Shown one piece after another: positions 20,033-45,278 of a stretch of DNA of 64,000 nucleotides. Below the pieces are notes generated by a model, which worked only from the letters and a program-made list of their open reading frames with translations, was not told the origin of the DNA and ran no database searches. Every line of letters begins with the position of its first letter. Within the stretch, counting starts at the first letter, position 1. The DNA lies in assembly GCF_000526375.1 (NCBI RefSeq), contig NZ_JAFY01000007.1:434001-498000 (forward strand), given 5' to 3'. Origin of the DNA: Aminiphilus circumscriptus DSM 16581 (GTDB taxonomy: Bacteria; Synergistota; Synergistia; Synergistales; Aminiphilaceae). Made by a program: the position numbers and the translations under genes.

Positions 20033-20185
20033 ATGAGCCACCACCATCTTGCCAGAGACGAGCGCGAGATCATCGTCATCGGCCTGCGAATCGGAGTATC
20101 CCAGCAGGAGATCGCTTTCCGGATCGGGCGTTCCAGGAGCACCATCCGCCGGGAGATTCCGCGCTCCAGCGCCGCATTGTCGTGA
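20033..20185 (+). pseudogene. Truncated IS30-family transposase (N-terminus only)
   Basis: A 50-codon frame starting MSHHHLARDEREIIVIGL. It continues with a helix-turn-helix segment, GVSQQEIAFRIGRSRSTIRREI, the typical N-terminal DNA-binding part of IS30-family transposases, then stops. Full-length family members exceed 300 residues, and no catalytic region follows. GGGGAGG precedes the ATG. A MITE begins 12 bp after the stop. Confidence 0.75.
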
Positions 20186-20197
20186 GGATTTTCATAA

Positions 20198-20297
20198 GGA
20201 AGCTCTGAAGAAAGACCTTTCGCTTTCCTTTGACTCGGGTCGCGTCAGGCTCTGCGAGGCGCCCTGTGGGGCTGGCGTAGCCCTATTCAGAGATTCC
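20198..20297 (+). mobile_element. MITE copy 1 (IS5-type ends)
   Basis: A 100-bp element with ends GGAAGCTCTGAAGAAAG and (right, inward) GGAATCTCTGAATAGGG, flanked by ATAA on both sides (20194-20197 and 20298-20301). Its core is shared with copies at 30010 (same orientation) and 33752 (opposite). The ends match the IS5-type element at 306-1541. It carries no gene. Confidence 0.85.
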
Positions 20298-20732: not shown

Positions 20733-21074
20733 ATGGCAATGCGACTCATCCAGGAACATCCCATACTCGATTTCGAGCATGGGAAGAAGAAGAAAGTGCG
20801 TTTCACCTTCGACGGCAGCGAGATGGAAGGCTTCGAAGGAGAACCCATCGCCATGGCGCTTCACGCCGGAGGCGTGCGGATCTACCGTGAGACGCCGGAG
20901 ATGAAGCGTCCCCGGGGATTCTTCTGCGCCATCGGCAAATGCTCGTCCTGCTTCATGGTCGTGGACGGAGTTCCGAACGTGCGGACCTGCATCATCCCCC
21001 TTCGCGAGGGCATGAGCGTCGAAACCCAGCGCGGCCGCGGCGAAGTGCGCAGCGAAGAGGAAAGGAGGGTTTGA
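20733..21074 (+). CDS. (2Fe-2S)-binding subunit of an amino-acid/amine dehydrogenase
   Basis: A 113-residue ferredoxin-fold protein like the small subunit of heterotetrameric sarcosine oxidase-type and HcnA-type dehydrogenases. FFCAIGKCSSCFMVVDGVPN, followed by RTC, gives the cysteine pattern for one 2Fe-2S cluster. The segment GEPIAMALHAGGVRIYRE is typical of the family. The ATG at 20733 follows GGGGAGGGG by 5 bp. It is first of five tightly spaced genes and probably passes electrons from the flavoprotein subunits. Confidence 0.85.
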   Translation: MAMRLIQEHPILDFEHGKKKKVRFTFDGSEMEGFEGEPIAMALHAGGVRIYRETPEMKRPRGFFCAIGKCSSCFMVVDGVPNVRTCIIPLREGMSVETQRGRGEVRSEEERRV

Positions 21075-21076
21075 GC

Positions 21077-22177
21077 GTGCGGACCACGGAAATCCTCGTC
21101 ATCGGAGGCGGCCCCGCCGGCCTCTCCGCCGCCATCGAAGCCGCCACCCTCGGAGCGCAGGTCACCGTCGTCGACAGCGACTTGAAGCTCGGAGGCCAGC
21201 TCATCAAACAGACCCATAAATTCTTCGGTTCCAAGGACGAATACGCCGGAACCCGCGGGTACAAGATCGCCGACATCCTCTTCGACGACCTCAGGAAAAA
21301 CGCCGACCGCATCGAAATCCTCTCCGACTGCACCGCCACCGGCTACTACCCCGAGGACGGCATCGTCACCTGCATGATCGGAGAAGAGAAATACTTCCGG
21401 ATACGGCCCAAGAAAATCGTCGTCGCCACCGGAGCCCAGGAACGGCTCATCCCCTTCCCCGGCAACGACCTTCCCGGCGTCTACGGAGCCGGAGCCGTCC
21501 AGACCCTCATGAACGTCTACGGCGTCACCCCCGGCGACCGCGTCCTCATGGTCGGAGCCGGCAACATCGGCCTCATCGTCAGTTACCAGCTCCTTCAGGC
21601 CGGAGTCCAGGTGTGCGGCGTCGTCGAATTCATGCCCAAAGTCGGCGGATACTGGGTCCACGCCGCCAAGATCCGCCGTCTCGGCGTGCCCATCTACCTC
21701 CAGCACACCATCGTCGAAGCCCTCGGTGAACGCACCGTCACCGGCGCCATCATCGAGAACCTCGCCCCCGACTGCACCCCCGGCGGCAAACGCACCACCA
21801 TCGACTGCGACATCATCTGCATGGCCGTCGGGCTCGCCCCCACCTGCGAACTCCTGTGGCAGGCCGGATGCGCCATGAAATTCATTCCCCAGCTCTGCGG
21901 ACACGTCGCCCTTCGCGACCCCTCCATGCGGACCAGCCATCCCGACATCTGGATAGCCGGAGACGCCGCAGGAATCGAAGAAGCCTCCTCCGCCATGGTC
22001 GAAGGCCGCATCGCCGGACTCGGCGCAGCCGGAGCCTGCGGACACGGCACCCCCGAAGAACGCAAAGAGCGGTTTGCCCACTACAGCGAACGCCTTGCCG
22101 ACCTCCGCGCCGGAGAAGTCGGCGAAAAGATCCGCATCGGCGTCAGCGCCGCCGGCGTCCAGAAATGGGAGGAATAG
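21077..22177 (+). CDS. FAD/NAD(P)-dependent oxidoreductase subunit (alpha-type) of amino-acid dehydrogenase
   Basis: A 366-residue flavoprotein with two dinucleotide-binding folds. FAD motif EILVIGGGPAGLSAAIEAA is near residue 5 and a second GxGxxG, VLMVGAGNIGLIVSYQLL, near residue 155. VVATGAQERLIPFPGNDLPGV and IWIAGDAAGIEEA are typical of HcnB/SoxA-N and the alpha subunit of dye-linked L-proline dehydrogenase. The start was chosen as GTG 21077, seven bases after AAAGGAGGG. Unlike many homologues, the 2Fe-2S domain is a separate upstream gene. Confidence 0.85.
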   Translation: MRTTEILVIGGGPAGLSAAIEAATLGAQVTVVDSDLKLGGQLIKQTHKFFGSKDEYAGTRGYKIADILFDDLRKNADRIEILSDCTATGYYPEDGIVTCMIGEEKYFRIRPKKIVVATGAQERLIPFPGNDLPGVYGAGAVQTLMNVYGVTPGDRVLMVGAGNIGLIVSYQLLQAGVQVCGVVEFMPKVGGYWVHAAKIRRLGVPIYLQHTIVEALGERTVTGAIIENLAPDCTPGGKRTTIDCDIICMAVGLAPTCELLWQAGCAMKFIPQLCGHVALRDPSMRTSHPDIWIAGDAAGIEEASSAMVEGRIAGLGAAGACGHGTPEERKERFAHYSERLADLRAGEVGEKIRIGVSAAGVQKWEE

Positions 22178-22181
22178 CCCC

Positions 22182-22685
22182 ATGACCGACAACGAGAAGA
22201 CCTTCAACAGCGGCATCCTCACCGGAGAGCGCCCCGGCGCCGTCCTTCCCCCCAAAGAGCTTTGGGAGACCAAGAAGAACGGCCTCGTCCTCATCGAGTG
22301 CCCCCAGCGCATCCCGTGCAACCCCTGCGCCACCAGCTGCCCCACCGGCGCAGTCATCCCCTTCGAGGACATCAACGACACCCCCCGGATCGACTACAGC
22401 AAATGCACCGGCTGCGCCCTGTGCGTCGCCAAGTGCCCCGGCCTCGCCTGCTTCGTCGCGGACCTTACCTGGGGAGAGAAGGAAGCCCTGTTGAAACTCC
22501 CCTACGAAATGCTTCCCGTCCCCGAGAAAGGGCAGACCGTCGCGTGTCTGAACCGCCAGGGCGACGAAGTGCACCGCACCCAGGTCGTGAACGTCACCCA
22601 GCCGTGGAAGGACAGGACCTACGTCGTCTCCGTGGCCGTACCGAGAGAACTCGTCTCGGAAGTCCGGGCCGTGAAGGTGGTGTGA
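22182..22685 (+). CDS. 4Fe-4S ferredoxin-type subunit of the dehydrogenase operon
   Basis: A 167-residue iron-sulfur protein. Cysteines in ECPQRIPCNPCATSCPTGA and CTGCALCVAKCPG give two cluster-binding sets. The remainder is a beta-rich tail. Four bases separate it from the alpha-type gene. It corresponds in position to the ferredoxin-like gene (F) of the archaeal pdhAFXB cluster, and is predicted to wire the flavoproteins to a soluble carrier. Confidence 0.82.
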   Translation: MTDNEKTFNSGILTGERPGAVLPPKELWETKKNGLVLIECPQRIPCNPCATSCPTGAVIPFEDINDTPRIDYSKCTGCALCVAKCPGLACFVADLTWGEKEALLKLPYEMLPVPEKGQTVACLNRQGDEVHRTQVVNVTQPWKDRTYVVSVAVPRELVSEVRAVKVV

Positions 22686-22688
22686 GAC

Positions 22689-22964
22689 ATGGAGAAGGAA
22701 GTCATCGTCTGCCGTTGCGAGGAAGTGACCATGGAAGAGATCCGGGAATGGATCGGCAAGGGATACGATACCTTCGACGAACTGAAGCGCGTTCTCCGTG
22801 TGGGGATGGGTCCGTGCCAGGGCCGGGGTTGCCGTGAGATCATCCTCCGGGAGATCGCCAAGATCACCGGAACCCCCTACGCGGAGATTCCTCCCGGAAC
22901 CATCCGTCCCCCGGCAAAACCCGTCAAGCTCGCTCTGCTGGCGGAAGGAGGCGACGAGCGATGA
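22689..22964 (+). CDS. BFD-type (2Fe-2S)-binding protein
   Basis: A 91-residue protein with the BFD-like pattern VCRCEEVT, then GMGPCQGRGC, giving the four cysteines (CxC...CxxxxC) for a 2Fe-2S cluster. It lies 3 bp after the ferredoxin gene and overlaps the next gene by 4 bp. It corresponds in place to the X gene of pdhAFXB-like clusters. Confidence 0.85.
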   Translation: MEKEVIVCRCEEVTMEEIREWIGKGYDTFDELKRVLRVGMGPCQGRGCREIILREIAKITGTPYAEIPPGTIRPPAKPVKLALLAEGGDER

Positions 22965-24112
22965 GCTGGAAAACACACGCGGATGCGGTCATCGTCGGCG
23001 GGGGCATCCAGGGGTGCGCCATCGCCTACAATCTCGCCAAGATGGGCATGAAGAACGTGGTGGTTCTGGAGATGAACACCGTCTCCTCCGGTTCCACCGG
23101 ACGGTGCGGCGCAGGCATCCGTGCCCAGTGGGGCACGGAGATGAACTGCCGCCTCGGAGGCGCCGCCCTCGACCTCTTCGAACAGCTCAGTGACGAGCTG
23201 GGCATGGATATCGGGCTCAACCAGTGCGGTTATCTCATGGTTGCCTACAAGGAGAGCGAGTACGAGCGGCTCAGGCAGAGCATGGTCCTGCAGAACAGCC
23301 TGGGCATCAAGACCCGGACGGTCACCAAGGAAGAGGCCTACGAAATCTGCCCCGCCCTGTGGGCCGAGGACGCGGTGGGTTTCACCTTCCACCAGCGCGA
23401 CGGACACGCGGACCCCTTCCTCACTACCTTCGCCTACCAGGAGGCGGCGAAACGCCTCGGCGTGGTCTTCCACAAGTTCACCAAGTGCACGGGCATCACC
23501 GTCGCAAACGGCAGGGTGACCCAGGTTGCCACCACAAAGGGAACCATCGACACCCCCGTCGTGGTCGATGCCGCGGGACCTTACTCCCAGCACATCTCCA
23601 AGATGGTGGGCATCGAGATCCCCAACTTCTCCGAGCGCCACGAGATCCTCATCACCGAGCCGGTGGAGTTCGGCGTCTGCCCGCCCATGCTGATGAGCTT
23701 CTCCGGAAACTATTATATCCAGCAGCGCCCCCACGGTTCCATCATCGGCGGGTGCAGCCCCGAGGGGCATCCCGAGGACTACGAGAACAAAGCTACCTGG
23801 AACTTCCTGGAGCATATGTCGAAGACCTTCACGAAACTGCTTCCCCGGACGAAGGGCATCCGGGTGGTGCGGCAATGGTCCGGCATGTACAACATGACTC
23901 CGGACAAGCAGCCCATTCTCGGCCAGGCCGACGAGGTGAAGGGCTTCTACTATTCCTGCGGTTTCTCCGGCCACGGGTTCATGTTCGGTCCTATCACGGG
24001 CCAGCTTCTCGCCGAGGACATCCTCACCGGCAAGACGTCGATTCCCATCGACATGCTGCACTATCGCCGCTTCGCGAAGGGAGAACTGATCCTGGAGCCC
24101 GCGGTGGTGTAG
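22961..24112 (+). CDS. FAD-dependent amino-acid dehydrogenase catalytic (beta-type) subunit, DAO family
   Basis: A 383-residue flavoprotein of the D-amino-acid oxidase/sarcosine oxidase-beta fold. It probably carries out substrate oxidation. FAD motif ADAVIVGGGIQGCAIAYNLA is near residue 7; SGSTGRCGAGIRAQWG follows at the flavin site; the C-terminal YYSCGFSGHGFMFGPITGQL is the conserved FAD-contacting segment. The substrate is not fixed by sequence: L-proline, hydroxyproline, sarcosine or glycine-type amines are all possible. It is last in the operon and is followed by a strong terminator. Confidence 0.85.
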   Translation: MSWKTHADAVIVGGGIQGCAIAYNLAKMGMKNVVVLEMNTVSSGSTGRCGAGIRAQWGTEMNCRLGGAALDLFEQLSDELGMDIGLNQCGYLMVAYKESEYERLRQSMVLQNSLGIKTRTVTKEEAYEICPALWAEDAVGFTFHQRDGHADPFLTTFAYQEAAKRLGVVFHKFTKCTGITVANGRVTQVATTKGTIDTPVVVDAAGPYSQHISKMVGIEIPNFSERHEILITEPVEFGVCPPMLMSFSGNYYIQQRPHGSIIGGCSPEGHPEDYENKATWNFLEHMSKTFTKLLPRTKGIRVVRQWSGMYNMTPDKQPILGQADEVKGFYYSCGFSGHGFMFGPITGQLLAEDILTGKTSIPIDMLHYRRFAKGELILEPAVV

Positions 24113-24299: not shown

Positions 24300-24348
24300 G
24301 CCGGTGGTGCATCTTGGCTGAGTCTCTAAAGGGAGGATGGTGCATTTC

Positions 24349-24558
24349 GTGAGCAAGCAGTTCGACGTACTCATCAACAAAGGATGGTGCAAGGGATGCG
24401 GACTCTGCATCGCCGTCTGTCCGAAGAACGTTCTCGAACTCGACGACCGTGTGAAGTGCGAGCCGGTGAGAATGGACGACTGCATCGGATGCAGACAGTG
24501 TGAGAATATCTGTCCGGATCTTGCCATTACGGTGAAGGAGCGTGAACAGGATGCCTAA
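24349..24558 (+). CDS. korD: 2-oxoacid:ferredoxin oxidoreductase delta (ferredoxin) subunit
   Basis: A small two-[4Fe-4S] ferredoxin subunit that collects electrons from the Kor complex. Cysteine motifs CKGCGLCIAVCP and CIGCRQCENICP are complete. The start is uncertain: GTG 24349 is 12 bp after GGGAGG; GTG 24340 and ATG 24337 are in frame but sit too close to it. It overlaps korA by 8 bp. Subunit order D-A-B-C is typical for anaerobes. Confidence 0.9.
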   Translation: MSKQFDVLINKGWCKGCGLCIAVCPKNVLELDDRVKCEPVRMDDCIGCRQCENICPDLAITVKEREQDA

Positions 24559-25681
24559 GATCGCATTTTGGCAGGGGAACATGGGCATCGCCATGGGAGC
24601 CATCGCTGCGGGATGCAGATTCTTCGGCGGCTATCCCATTACGCCCTCGACGGAAATCGCGGAGGTGATGGCGGAGGAACTGCCCCGCCTCGGCGGTAAG
24701 TTCATCCAAATGGAAGACGAGATCGCCGGCATCGCCGCGGCCATCGGTGCCTCCATCGCGGGCGTCAAGTCCATGACTGCCACCTCTGGTCCCGGCTTCT
24801 CCCTGAAGCAGGAAAACCTGGGCCTGGCCTACATGGCGGAGATCCCCCTCGTGGTGGTGGACGTCATGCGCGGCGGTCCCTCCACGGGACTTCCCACGAA
24901 AATATCCCAGCAGGACGTCATGCAGGCCCGCTGGGGCTCCCACGGCGACCACGGCACTATCGCCTACGCACCGTCCTCCGTGCAGGAGTGCTACGAAATC
25001 ACCGTCGAGGCGTTCAACATGGCGGAACGCTTCCGGCAGCCCGTGCTCATCATGAACGACGAAGTGCTTGGCCACATGCGCGAAAAAGTCATCGTTCCCG
25101 AGGAAGACACCCTTGTGCTCGTGGACCGCAAGCGCCCCACGGTTTCCCCCGATGAATTCGTGCCCTACCGGGCGGACGAACAGGACGACATCCCCCCCAT
25201 GGCAGGCATGGGAGACGGGTACCGCTGGCATGTGACGGGTCTCACCCACAACGATTGGGGATTTCCCACGAACAACGCCGCGGAAATAGAGAAGAAGATG
25301 CTGCGCCTCATGCGGAAGATCGACCGCTTCCGGGACGACATCGTCAAGTACGATACGGAGTCCGTGAAGGATGCGGACGTGCTGGTGCTCTCCTACGGCA
25401 GCGTGGCCCGCACCGCCCTGAGCGCCGTGCGCATGGCCCGAAAGAAGGGAATCAAGGTCGGGCACTTCCGGCCCGTCACGCTCTGGCCCTTCCCGGACAA
25501 GGAGCTGGAGGCCATCGCCTCCCGCGTCAAGACCATCCTCGTTCCCGAGCTCAACTGCGGCCAGATGGTCCTTGAAGTCGAGCGGGTCGTCGGCAAGGAA
25601 CGGGTCGTCCGCCAGAACCTGGTGAACGGAGAGCTTTTCAAACCCGTGGAGATTCTCTCCAAGATTGAGGAGGTGGCCTGA
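24551..25681 (+). CDS. korA: 2-oxoacid:ferredoxin oxidoreductase alpha subunit
   Basis: Binds substrate and CoA side of the reaction 2-oxoglutarate (or a related 2-oxoacid) + CoA + oxidised ferredoxin to acyl-CoA + CO2. GGYPITPSTEIAEVMAEEL near the N-terminus and MTATSGPGFSLKQE are family hallmarks, with RGGPSTGLPTKISQQD following. The 376-residue length fits a stand-alone alpha subunit. The ATG at 24551 was chosen over GTG 24542, which abuts GAAGGAG. The neighbouring glutamate dehydrogenase favours 2-oxoglutarate as substrate. Confidence 0.93.
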   Translation: MPKIAFWQGNMGIAMGAIAAGCRFFGGYPITPSTEIAEVMAEELPRLGGKFIQMEDEIAGIAAAIGASIAGVKSMTATSGPGFSLKQENLGLAYMAEIPLVVVDVMRGGPSTGLPTKISQQDVMQARWGSHGDHGTIAYAPSSVQECYEITVEAFNMAERFRQPVLIMNDEVLGHMREKVIVPEEDTLVLVDRKRPTVSPDEFVPYRADEQDDIPPMAGMGDGYRWHVTGLTHNDWGFPTNNAAEIEKKMLRLMRKIDRFRDDIVKYDTESVKDADVLVLSYGSVARTALSAVRMARKKGIKVGHFRPVTLWPFPDKELEAIASRVKTILVPELNCGQMVLEVERVVGKERVVRQNLVNGELFKPVEILSKIEEVA

Positions 25682-25683
25682 TC

Positions 25684-26499
25684 ATGCCTCGGGAAGAAGT
25701 CATGAAATGGCTTCGGGCGCGCTTTTTCCCCCATATCTGGTGTCCCGGATGCGGACACGGAATTGTCATGCACGCCCTGCTCCGCTCTCTCGTCGCGCTC
25801 GACAAGAAGCCCGAGGAGACGGTCATCGCGTCGGGAATCGGCTGCTCCAGCCGTATGCCCGGCTACATCAACGCCTGCACGGTGCACACCACCCACGGCC
25901 GCTCCCTCGGGTTCGCCACGGGGATCAAGCTCGCCAAGCCCGAACTGACCGTCATTGACGTCATGGGAGACGGGGACTGCACCGCCATCGGCGGCAACCA
26001 CTTTATCCACGCCTGCCGCAGAAACATCGGCATCACCGCCATCGTCATGAACAACAACATTTACGGTATGACGGGCGGGCAGGCCTCGCCCACGACGCCT
26101 CCGGGAGCCAGGGCGACCACCGCTCCCTACGGCGCCATCGATCCCCCCTTCGACATCTGCAACCTTGCCGCGGGAGCCGGGGCCACCTACGTCGCCCGGG
26201 CCACCATCGCCCAGCCAGCTCTGTGCGAGCAGTACATCAAGAAGGGAATCCAGCACAAGGGCTTCTCCGTGATCGAGATCGTCACTCACTGCCACACTCA
26301 GTTCGGACGGAAGAACAAGCGGAGTACCCCCGTGGACAACCTGAACTTCTTCAAGCAGGCGAGTGTCGCCAAGGCCAAGGCGGACCAAATGTCCCCGGAA
26401 GAGCTGGTGGGCAAGATCATCACCGGCGAGTTCGTCAACAAGGACATTCCCGAATACACAGAGCAGTACGATAAACTCATCGCCAAGGTGAGGGGGTAG
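25684..26499 (+). CDS. korB: 2-oxoacid:ferredoxin oxidoreductase beta (TPP-binding) subunit
   Basis: Carries thiamine diphosphate and, with its cysteines, usually a 4Fe-4S cluster. WCPGCGHGIVMHALL near residue 20, GIGCSSRMPGY, and the TPP/Mg motif MGDGDCTAIGGNHFIHACRR with NNNIYGMTGGQ are all present. Length of 271 is typical. It is separated from korA by 2 bp and from korC by 4 bp, so co-translation is likely. Confidence 0.95.
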   Translation: MPREEVMKWLRARFFPHIWCPGCGHGIVMHALLRSLVALDKKPEETVIASGIGCSSRMPGYINACTVHTTHGRSLGFATGIKLAKPELTVIDVMGDGDCTAIGGNHFIHACRRNIGITAIVMNNNIYGMTGGQASPTTPPGARATTAPYGAIDPPFDICNLAAGAGATYVARATIAQPALCEQYIKKGIQHKGFSVIEIVTHCHTQFGRKNKRSTPVDNLNFFKQASVAKAKADQMSPEELVGKIITGEFVNKDIPEYTEQYDKLIAKVRG

Positions 26500-26503
26500 C
26501 GAC

Positions 26504-27052
26504 ATGAGCGAGCGTTACGAAATCCGCGTGGCCGGTTCGGGGGGGCAGGGGGTTATCCTCGCGGCGGTCATTCTCGGCGAGGCGGCGGTTCTTCACGAGG
26601 GAATCAACGCCGTGCAGAGCCAGGCCTATGGTCCCGAAGCGCGTGGGGGCTCCTCGAAATCGGAAGTGGTGGTTTCCCGGGGCGAAATCGATTATCCTAA
26701 GGCCATGGCGCCGAACCTCCAGGTGGCGCTCACCCAGAAGGCCTGCGATGAGTATGTGAAGGACACGGCGCCTGGTGGTATCGTTATCCTGGACGACTTC
26801 TTCGTCACCGATCTTCCCTCGGTGGATGCGGAGATTCTGCATCTCCCCATCGTGCGCACCGCCCGGGAGAAACTCGGCAAGGAGATCGTGGTCAATATGG
26901 TTGCCCTTGGTGCTGCGGCCAAGGTTCTGGAGAAGAAGGGGCTTTACAACCCCGAGTCGATCCGGAGTGCCATTCTCGCCCGGGTTCCCAAGGGAACGGA
27001 GGAGCTGAACTCCAAAGCCTTTGAGGCTGGGTACGAGCTGGTACGCATGTGA
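26504..27052 (+). CDS. korC: 2-oxoacid:ferredoxin oxidoreductase gamma subunit
   Basis: Subunit of the Kor complex. The motif RVAGSGGQGVILAAVILGEAA at the N-terminus and SYGPEARGG-like AYGPEARGGSSKSEVVVS are diagnostic. Length of 182 is normal. It ends the korDABC set. Glutamate dehydrogenase begins 95 bp downstream with no terminator between, so one transcript is plausible. Confidence 0.94.
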   Translation: MSERYEIRVAGSGGQGVILAAVILGEAAVLHEGINAVQSQAYGPEARGGSSKSEVVVSRGEIDYPKAMAPNLQVALTQKACDEYVKDTAPGGIVILDDFFVTDLPSVDAEILHLPIVRTAREKLGKEIVVNMVALGAAAKVLEKKGLYNPESIRSAILARVPKGTEELNSKAFEAGYELVRM

Positions 27053-27147
27053 GAAACTCCGTGTCTCGGAACAGGGGGCACGGTTTTGCGTTGTGGGTGC
27101 GGTATGGAGAGAAAGGAACCAACGAGACAAGCAAGGAGGGGTACCTC

Positions 27148-28425
27148 ATGGCGATCCAGAAACGGACGTCAACGAATGTGTTGCTCGATACGGCTCTTCG
27201 GAACTTCTACGCTGCCGCGGAGGAAATGCGGCTGGACGAGGGACTTGTGGAGATCCTGAGCCATTCCGAGCGCAGAACGTGTGTTTCCATCCCCGTCGAG
27301 ATGGACGACGGCTCCGTGAAAGTTTTCGACGGCTACAGAGTGCAGCATTCCACGGCTCTCGGTCCCTCGAAGGGCGGCATTCGGTTCCATCCTGACGTGT
27401 GTCTCGACGAGTGCGAGGCCCTCGCCATGATGATGACCTGGAAGTGTTCCCTCGCGGGGATTCCCTACGGCGGCGGCAAGGGCGGTGTGTCCTTCAACCC
27501 TCTGGACTACTCCCAGAAGGAGCGGGAGCGGCTCACGAGAACCTTCGCCGCGCGGATCGAGCCCGTGGTCGGCACCTGGACCGACGTGCCTGCGCCGGAC
27601 GTGAACACCGGCGGTCCCGAGATGATCTGGTTCATGGACACCATCAGCAAAATGCGGAACCAGCTCGAGCCCGCCATCTTCACCGGCAAGCCCATCTCCC
27701 TCTGGGGATCCAAGGGCAGAACCGCCGCGACGGGCCTCGGCGTCGCCACCTGCGCCATGGAGGTCCTCAAGGTCTCCGGCAAGCCCGTCGAGGGTGCCAC
27801 CGTGGCCATCCAGGGCTTCGGTAACGTCGGTACCTACGCGGCTCTCACCATGGTGAAGGCCGGCGCGAAGGTCGTGGCCATCAGCGACATTACCGGCGCC
27901 TACTACTGCCCCGCAGGTCTGGACATCCAGAAGTGCTTCGACTTCGTCAGCTCCCACCCCAAGAAGCTCCTCGAAGGGTACCAGCAGGAGGGCATGCAGA
28001 AGCTCGCCGGTGAGGACCTGCTCTTCCTCCCCGTGGACGTCCTGCTCCCCTGCGCGCTCGAGGGCGCCATCAACGGCAAGAACGCCGACAAGGTGCAGGC
28101 CAAGTTCATCATCGAGGGAGCCAACGGCCCCGTCACTCCCGAGGGCGACGAGATCCTCGACAAGAAGGGCACCCTCGTCGTGCCTGACTTCCTCGCCAAC
28201 AGCGGCGGTGTCATCGGCTCGTATTTCGAGTGGTGCCAAAACCTGGGCGGCTTCTTCTGGTCCGAGGAAGAGTACAACGACCGCCTTCTCCGGATCATGC
28301 GGGACAACTTCCACCGCGTCTGGGACTACAGCACGGCGAACGGCGTCAAAATGCGCAGGGCCGCCTTCATGGTCGCCATCAAGCGGGTCGCCGACGCAGT
28401 GCGCATGAGAGGGGTTTTCCTCTAG
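27148..28425 (+). CDS. gdhA: Glutamate dehydrogenase
   Basis: Oxidatively deaminates glutamate to 2-oxoglutarate and ammonia with NAD(P). The substrate-binding segment STALGPSKGGIRFHPDV, the GGGKGG motif with catalytic lysine, and VPAPDVNTGGPEM are in place. The Rossmann fold is GATVAIQGFGNVGTYAA, and IIEGANGPVTPEGDEIL follows. The 425-residue length fits hexameric enzymes. The ATG at 27148 lies after AAGGAGGGG; the frame is open back to 27049. With Kor it makes a glutamate to succinyl-CoA module. Coenzyme preference cannot be read with confidence. Confidence 0.95.
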   Translation: MAIQKRTSTNVLLDTALRNFYAAAEEMRLDEGLVEILSHSERRTCVSIPVEMDDGSVKVFDGYRVQHSTALGPSKGGIRFHPDVCLDECEALAMMMTWKCSLAGIPYGGGKGGVSFNPLDYSQKERERLTRTFAARIEPVVGTWTDVPAPDVNTGGPEMIWFMDTISKMRNQLEPAIFTGKPISLWGSKGRTAATGLGVATCAMEVLKVSGKPVEGATVAIQGFGNVGTYAALTMVKAGAKVVAISDITGAYYCPAGLDIQKCFDFVSSHPKKLLEGYQQEGMQKLAGEDLLFLPVDVLLPCALEGAINGKNADKVQAKFIIEGANGPVTPEGDEILDKKGTLVVPDFLANSGGVIGSYFEWCQNLGGFFWSEEEYNDRLLRIMRDNFHRVWDYSTANGVKMRRAAFMVAIKRVADAVRMRGVFL

Positions 28426-44930: not shown

Positions 44931-45278
44931 AACTTAGTTTCGAGGAGGATTGCTGTGAACGCTCTGCATGGCTTCCGGCGAGCTAGACGCATAAGACCTG
45001 TGACCGCCTTCATTTCCCAGAATCGGGTGATGACGGGGAGAGTAGGTCGTCGTCTCGTCGCCAGAGAGGAAGCGCCTTAGGCTGAGAGCGTTTCCCGGCG
45101 AACACGGCTGAAGAGAACCTCCGAGCCCGCTCCGAAGAAAGGACGAAAGTCCAAGTAGGAGCACGGAAGCCTCCGTTATAGGGCGTCGAGAGGGAAGAAT
45201 CGGCAACGCTTCTTCCAAGTAGGGTGGTACCGCGGGTTAATGCCCGTCCCTTGTTATGAGGGACGGGCATTTTTTTTA
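44931..45278 (+). promoter_or_regulatory. T-box riboswitch leader with arginine specifier
   Basis: The T-box sequence AGGGTGGTACCGCG is at 45221-45234, followed by an intrinsic terminator: stem TGCCCGTCCC / GGGACGGGCA (45241-45269) and nine T. Upstream, a Stem I-like region runs from about 45025, with GGGGAGAGTAGG, CAGAGAGG and a distal hairpin. The block CTGAAG-AGA-ACCTCCGAG has the usual context of the specifier, giving AGA (Arg) at 45114-45116. Uncharged tRNA-Arg would then favour read-through into argG. Confidence 0.88.

Follow-up and report, generated by a model that had tools for sequence, protein, structure and literature searches.

A split five-gene flavin/iron-sulfur cluster of Aminiphilus circumscriptus as a probable L-proline dehydrogenase with an apparently shared redox module

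The window analysed here is a stretch of 64,000 nucleotides from the Synergistota bacterium Aminiphilus circumscriptus DSM 16581 (positions 434,001-498,000 of contig NZ_JAFY01000007.1; genome of 3.2 Mb, labelled G000), and our subject is a run of five forward-strand genes within it. With start codons taken as ATG 20733, GTG 21077, ATG 22182, ATG 22689 and ATG 22961, these encode a [2Fe-2S] protein resembling the gamma subunit OdhC (20733..21074; Pfam Fer2_4, 104 bits, cut-off 22.8), a flavoprotein of the FAD/NAD(P) type that corresponds to an alpha-subunit core (21077..22177; Pyr_redox_2, 122 bits, cut-off 26.1), a [4Fe-4S] ferredoxin with two clusters and an additional beta domain at its C-terminus (22182..22685; Fer4_7 and Fer4_10, over cut-off), a BFD-type [2Fe-2S] protein (22689..22964; SO_alpha_A3 and Fer2_BFD, 45.3 and 44.2 bits, over cut-offs) and an FAD-containing catalytic (beta) subunit resembling PDH1 beta, here called DAO1 (22961..24112; DAO, 252 bits, cut-off 27.9). 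The genes are tightly spaced, with a 4-bp overlap between the last two, and the order given for them in an original prediction made from the window alone is confirmed by Pfam, all matches lying above their cut-offs.

The Fer2 protein has its cysteines in the pattern C-X4-C-X2-C-X12-C, the ferredoxin in the patterns C-X5-C-X2-C-X3-CP and C-X2-C-X2-C-X3-CPG, and the BFD protein in the pattern C-X-C-X32-C-X4-C; four Fe-S clusters are predicted for the set. The flavoprotein, only 366 aa long, has a GxGxxG motif for FAD and a second one for NAD, while DAO1 carries the R-X-W motif (VVRQWSG), which the accessible part of PMC4575208 gives as an FMN site. Because of this last motif we would expect three flavins together with the four clusters, so that the earlier proposal of up to four carriers between two flavins is weakest in its number of flavins and in its wiring, an FMN at the subunit interface probably having to be added. 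The motifs are conserved among distinct homologues: the Fer2 cysteines in 89 of 90, the second GxGxxG in 89 of 91 flavoproteins, the eight-cysteine pattern in all 96 ferredoxins, the BFD motif in 105 of 107 proteins, and R-X-W in 91/92 sequences of DAO1 and 28/28 of its paralogue DAO2. A ferredoxin expression requiring proline after the fourth cysteine missed 25 of 94 sequences and was dropped, since 96/96 fit without the proline. The C-terminal beta domain of the ferredoxin (22482-22685, residues about 100-167) is modelled with a pLDDT mostly above 90; Foldseek gave no match for it with E below 0.07 and the best VIA-align Z, 5.1, was too weak for use, and we do not claim a new fold.

The conservation of the five-gene order is far beyond chance. 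In one scan of genome contigs, from which the best 80 of 216 relatives were kept, the exact order Fer2-flavoprotein-ferredoxin-BFD-DAO was found at 61 of 80 loci. Twelve further loci had no flavoprotein match (they were not checked singly, and many lie on short contigs), and the remaining seven were variants, two with the DAO gene first and five others; one variant locus had two catalytic genes behind one module. By record label the 80 loci divide into 44 from Synergistota, 33 from Bacillota, one from Pseudomonadota and two unplaced, and a protein of the DAO1/DAO2 family is present in 95 of 185 Synergistota genomes (E 1e-77 or better). The cluster is thus common in Synergistota and Bacillota and not special to A. 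circumscriptus; of the named records among the 80 loci kept, Synergistaceae bacterium UBA5560 is the closest, its DAO protein being 99% identical.

The best solved relative of DAO1 is the beta subunit of PDH1 from Pyrococcus horikoshii (1y56_B; E 2e-83, 284 bits), with dimethylglycine dehydrogenase (DMGDH) the next family at 131 bits. When the AlphaFold model of DAO1 (pLDDT 89) was compared with PDB chains using Foldseek, 1y56_B again came first (TM 0.94 and 0.96, rmsd 1.4 A, 37% identity), and sarcosine oxidase beta ranked behind it (TM 0.93-0.95). The parts of the archaeal alpha subunit are present as well, in that the Fer2 protein aligns to residues 6-88 of 1y56_A, the flavoprotein to residues 109-259 and the BFD protein to residues 411-491, with cysteines conserved on both sides in this last case, so that the three fall on the chain in gene order. 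PDH1 (PH1363/PH1364, alpha4beta4) therefore shares with the five-gene cluster the same catalytic fold, a Fer2 fold, an FAD protein and a BFD domain, but its alpha subunit is a single chain whereas the corresponding parts are separate genes here. Moreover, the Fer2 domain of PDH1 alpha is without cluster cysteines, both in our alignment and according to the accessible text of PMC1949818, whereas the Fer2 protein here keeps all four; the second GxGxxG, the NAD site, is conserved here and not in PDH1 alpha; and the two-cluster ferredoxin gene is an addition. The kinship with archaeal dye-linked L-proline dehydrogenase put forward in the original prediction is thus supported, and its reading of one gene per redox domain is borne out by Pfam and by the mapping onto PDH1 alpha.

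In hydrogen cyanide synthase, HcnABC, three genes supply a 2Fe-2S, an FAD/NAD and a DAO-type subunit, and the enzyme is not known to have the ferredoxin or a separate BFD gene. The L-proline dehydrogenase of Thermococcus profundus (alpha-beta-gamma-delta, pdhAFXB) comes from a cluster in which, by the order given for its T. litoralis homologues in the accessible part of PMC4364671, alpha and two small subunits precede beta, as here, although alpha is split over two genes in our cluster; the ferredoxin resembles PdhF/X by size and place. The separate 2Fe-2S gene, which had been singled out as an exception to the archaeal pattern, is indeed present, but it is no novelty, because the gamma subunit OdhC of opine dehydrogenase (OpnDH) is already so arranged (PMC4575208, as far as accessible). 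OpnDH (OdhABC) and D-hydroxyproline dehydrogenase (D-HypDH), both alpha4beta4gamma4, share with our cluster this separate [2Fe-2S] gene, whose pattern C-X4-C-X2-C-X11-12-C the window protein matches, and an R-X-W motif in beta. They differ in that the BFD-type motif lies inside alpha there and in a gene of its own here, and the accessible part of PMC4575208 does not report a two-cluster ferredoxin for them.

What does this enzyme oxidise? The interpretation that we regard as probable is that the five genes encode one heteromeric flavin/Fe-S L-proline dehydrogenase with a shared redox module, which would convert L-proline to pyrroline-5-carboxylate (P5C). We favour this reaction because of the gene context elsewhere and because the canonical proline dehydrogenase, PF01619, was absent from the Synergistota genomes searched, and for the same reasons proline leads among the substrates originally suggested, the others being hydroxyproline and sarcosine. 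PF01619 was detected in 0 of 185 Synergistota genomes, with 8 of 14 control genomes positive, and Pfam found no such domain in the five-gene cluster itself. At the 33 Bacillota loci, AOR or its ferredoxin adjoins the cluster in 19 and an L-glutamate-semialdehyde (GSA) dehydrogenase (TIGR01236) lies near it in five, giving 24 loci with one or the other; PrdR is near in 15 and proA, proB or P5C reductase genes in five. Among the 44 Synergistota loci, the hydroxyproline dehydratase HypD or its activase is near in seven, and 2-oxoacid:ferredoxin oxidoreductase (Kor) adjoins in 17. Representatives of these neighbours scored 789 bits for TIGR01236 (cut-off 613.6), 1171 for HypD (1100) and 811 for PrdR (795). 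HypD yields P5C, a compound that GSA dehydrogenase would use up, as would, by inference, AOR. Several of the AOR matches in G170, G172, G121, G171, G158 and G011 cross one in-frame TAG, which could reflect either an alignment running over the true end of the gene or recoding. The A. circumscriptus genome itself encodes two GSA dehydrogenases over the cut-off, HypD over the cut-off, and an AOR and AOR ferredoxin that are 57-58% and 50% identical, respectively, to those linked with the cluster.

The same partners follow the DAO family through the phylum. AOR of the linked type (E 1e-160 or better) is present in 68 of the 95 genomes with the family versus two of the 90 without it, GSA dehydrogenase over cut-off in 41/95 versus 0/90, and HypD (E 1e-200 or better) in 78/95 versus 3/90, while the D-proline reductase PrdA (680 bits or more) has the opposite distribution, 0/95 versus 5/90. 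The five PrdA genomes are G049, G067, G078, G091 and G105, four of them over the cut-off of 700 and G091 with a fragment just below; weaker matches in G006 and G009 (about 555 bits, both with the DAO family) and G011 (74 bits) were left out of the count. That PrdA occurs only in Synergistota genomes without the DAO family would set proline as an electron acceptor in these against proline as a donor in the others. Several points weigh against the L-proline interpretation. The phylum counts ignore shared ancestry, and most of the negatives come from few clades. Any proline gene was near the cluster at only 10 of 44 Synergistota loci, and no proline gene was found beside it in the window itself. 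In the tree, PDH1 beta was not a supported sister of DAO1, and we found no enzyme of exactly this layout with a tested substrate in the accessible literature. In addition, type 2 OpnDH (BjOdhB2) is described in the accessible portion of PMC4575208 as near archaeal L-proline dehydrogenase and yet does not use L-proline; homology, therefore, does not fix the substrate.

This last case also speaks for an alternative, namely that the enzyme belongs to the same superfamily but dehydrogenates N-methyl amino acids, sarcosine or opines. The top NCBIfam family for DAO1 is soxB, if only at 181.6 bits against a cut-off of 529, and a link to SoxB is allowed by a tree that took in DAO1, DAO2, PDH1 beta, SoxB and DMGDH, whose deep order is unsupported, with long branches meeting: the approximately unbiased (AU) test rejected neither DAO with PDH1 (p 0.27) nor PDH1 with SoxB (p 0.32), and we used this tree only for the separation of DAO1 from DAO2 and for the distance from L004, another DAO protein of the same genome. 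(Rows called DAO1 by best tblastn match in L127, L128, L141 and L152 fell outside the main DAO1 clade and are other paralogues.) However, although the heterotetrameric sarcosine oxidase SoxBDAG shares the beta fold and the N-terminal parts of alpha with the cluster, neither SoxD, SoxG nor the C-terminal aminomethyltransferase-like part was found among the five genes, and the flavoprotein covers only positions 169-485 of the 996 of soxA (159 bits, cut-off 1164). Genes for an opine synthase or for folate or glycine metabolism were likewise missing from the annotated neighbour groups (24 of 60 listed), and we consider such an activity unlikely. A glycerol-3-phosphate or other non-amine dehydrogenase like GlpABC is hardly credible: the BFD protein does score 40 bits against the BFD region of GlpA, but DAO1 scores 63.8 bits against GlpA (cut-off 552.8) versus its 181.6 to soxB, and L004, the more distant DAO protein (25% identity, with homologues of BFD and the flavoprotein next to it), joins the tree as an outgroup on a very long branch. 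The amine type originally assigned to the DAO subunit, as opposed to the glycerol-3-phosphate type, has thus held, the best solved match being PDH1 beta.

Could DAO1 instead oxidise D-proline or cis-4-hydroxy-D-proline, like D-HypDH, after a racemase or epimerase, with the product, pyrroline-2-carboxylate (Pyr2C) or its counterpart, passing to a Pyr2C reductase or deaminase? Genes for proline racemases or epimerases of the Cys-Cys type, with the catalytic cysteines aligned, are found beside some DAO1 loci (4 of 33 in Bacillota, 1 of 44 in Synergistota), and OCD/Pyr2C-reductase-family genes are near DAO1 at 7 of 44 Synergistota loci. The racemase, however, mostly adjoins the paralogue DAO2 (L122, L136, L137, L140, L145, L146, L147), so that a D-proline function fits DAO2 better, and the GSA dehydrogenase among the DAO1 neighbours needs P5C, not Pyr2C. 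We therefore judge this role improbable for DAO1. Because these racemase genes, of a type assigned in the accessible part of PMC4364671 to proline racemase or hydroxyproline epimerase, adjoin DAO2, that subunit likely serves a D-proline or hydroxyproline branch.

The four redox genes (20737..22946, forward strand) recur at G000:C2 as a 2210-bp copy with 97.0% identity (blastn), and this copy adjoins DAO2, which is only 43% identical to DAO1 and lies upstream of the module rather than downstream. Pairs of modules within one genome give the following identities for Fer2, flavoprotein, ferredoxin and BFD versus DAO: 98/99/95/94 versus 43 in G000, 97/100/100/100 versus 39 in G121 (the flavoprotein value coming from the longest open piece), 100/100/100/91 versus 39 in G021, 100/100/100/75 versus 39 in G163 and 100/100/100/77 versus 40 in G134. 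DNA tracts of 97-99.6% identity stop near the boundaries of the four genes in G000, G121, G021 and G163, while that of G134 is 94.1% identical and goes on for ~200 bp beyond the point where the catalytic gene starts. In the DAO tree, DAO1 sequences group apart from DAO2 sequences, whereas the flavoproteins pair by genome in theirs, and a single clade of ten DAO2-linked flavoproteins was rejected (AU p 1.2e-8). Misassembly is unlikely because G121, G021 and G134 are single-contig genomes. At least five independent homogenisation events would be needed to account for these sequences (G000, G121, G021, G163 and G134; G020 repeats G021). A general rule of homogenisation is opposed by G166, homogenised only in part (90/91/80/71 versus 40), and by G120 (71/67/67/71 versus 42), G119 (66/65/68/69 versus 40) and G152 (79/69/65/66 versus 35), which are not homogenised; in G160 only BFD and DAO could be compared (71 versus 36). 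In G121 the flavoprotein gene on the DAO1 side (L178 3303-4390, G121:C1:1486302-1487388) occupies two reading frames, whereas its counterpart on the DAO2 side is intact; either the gene is broken and the second copy makes up for it, or the sequence contains an error.

By what process did the copies come to be so alike? They may be kept near-identical by gene conversion or by repeated re-duplication. A competing account, to which we give somewhat less than an even chance and which concerns the origin of the module only, is that they are recent independent duplications beside DAO2 and not conversions of old copies. Ten genomes have DAO2 without an adjacent module (L122, L133, L134, L135, L136, L138, L140, L145, L146 and L147, some stretches being short), with one flavoprotein copy in eight of them, two in G009 and none at the threshold in G007 (56% complete), so that a module could be copied in anew; also in favour are the tracts that in four genomes are confined to the module's four genes, and a free-standing four-gene module in G009 (L202 4139-6354, G009:C6) that is 99.3% identical to the DAO1 module of the same genome. 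This free-standing copy follows an FCD-domain regulator, and no catalytic gene was seen beside it. On the other hand, G120, G119 and G152 retain old, diverged second modules, and in G163 and G134 BFD has diverged (75-77%) but the remaining three proteins show 100% identity, which is what tracts ending within an older pair would produce. Whichever process operated, the sequences show that four of the five genes evolve as one shared module, which is a new finding, and this module would not be bound to one substrate, serving DAO2 as well. In L124 the order is DAO2-module-DAO1. The accessible text of PMC4575208 describes "subunit exchange" in Bradyrhizobium japonicum, where beta subunits of OdhB1-C-A-B2 exchange on a common alpha and gamma. 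There the sharing is within one cluster, whereas here it would also extend between distant homogenised copies; the module sharing is of this opine dehydrogenase type, but phylum-wide, with repeated homogenisation and apparently in trans. Plasmid pTi_Tun176 (DAO-(2Fe-2S)-flavoprotein-DAO) likewise has one module flanked by two catalytic genes, the plasmid relatives comprising 1623 records, of which 40 were listed and five opened, those besides pTi_Tun176 being outgroups or comparison.

Just upstream of the operon, an open reading frame with an HTH_38 helix-turn-helix (20033-20182; Pfam 43.8 bits, cut-off 27) ends after 50 aa and is presumably the remnant of an IS30-type transposase. It is followed by a 109-bp repeat (20189-20297) that is 89% identical to a stretch near the second module copy (L116); with another relative near 16011 in L117, this is a dispersed repeat. 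Elsewhere in the window there is a T-box leader at 45021-45254 (108.7 bits, gathering threshold 93). Downstream of the cluster and on the same strand, Kor and glutamate dehydrogenase (GDH) were confirmed as originally predicted. Kor comprises a ferredoxin-type delta subunit (24337..24558; Pfam and NCBIfam) and the alpha, beta and gamma subunits (24551..27052; NCBIfam), likely of the 2-oxoglutarate type, so that it spans 24337-27052 in all, and GDH (27142..28425; Pfam and NCBIfam) follows.

If the cluster is an L-proline dehydrogenase, then the FAD of DAO1 would oxidise L-proline to P5C and electrons could pass to the interface FMN, the BFD cluster, the flavoprotein with the Fer2 and ferredoxin clusters and, finally, a soluble acceptor linked to ferredoxin or NAD. 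P5C would open to glutamate semialdehyde, which GSA dehydrogenase or AOR, with their genes elsewhere in the genome, would oxidise, and the neighbouring GDH and Kor may convert the glutamate to 2-oxoglutarate and then to a CoA ester. The potential of proline/P5C is about -120 mV and that of NAD about -320 mV. Since the transfer of proline electrons to plain NAD+ or ferredoxin is therefore uphill, either an acceptor of higher potential or confurcation with reduced ferredoxin would be needed. We can only speculate that the enzyme is an electron-confurcating proline dehydrogenase, in which electrons from proline and from reduced ferredoxin, supplied by the adjacent Kor and by AOR elsewhere, would be combined on NAD+, the FAD of the flavoprotein being the site of confurcation and the four clusters of the module forming the two branches; we consider this improbable. 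If true, it would explain why the anaerobic version, unlike PDH1 alpha, keeps every cluster and the NAD-type motif, why the operons have ferredoxin-reducing enzymes as neighbours, and why two different amino-acid-oxidising subunits share a universal module that stays identical.

We conclude that the cluster is real and widely conserved and represents a known kind of enzyme in a form split over five genes, and that the earlier analogy was a good one. Also new is the absence of the textbook proline dehydrogenase from the phylum, within the genomes searched. In the literature, of which our coverage was partial, making this weak evidence of novelty, we found no recognisable description of the five-gene cluster, the AOR link or the module homogenisation, and a text search of PMC8097209 gave no mention of proline, sarcosine or dye-linked. 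In an ecogenomic study, the conversion of proline to glutamate in one Synergistota bin was assigned, in the part accessible, to P5C reductase and GSA dehydrogenase (PMC8674449). Synergistota are amino-acid fermenters, yet the textbook enzyme is missing from all 185 genomes, and the cluster is a stronger candidate to fill this gap. It would tie together proline, hydroxyproline (through HypD) and ferredoxin metabolism, and it raises an energetic question: "Where do electrons, taken to be at about -120 mV, go in a fermenting anaerobe?" The homogenised module, in turn, is a natural case where evolution has singled out the subunits that make up an exchangeable unit of electron transfer.

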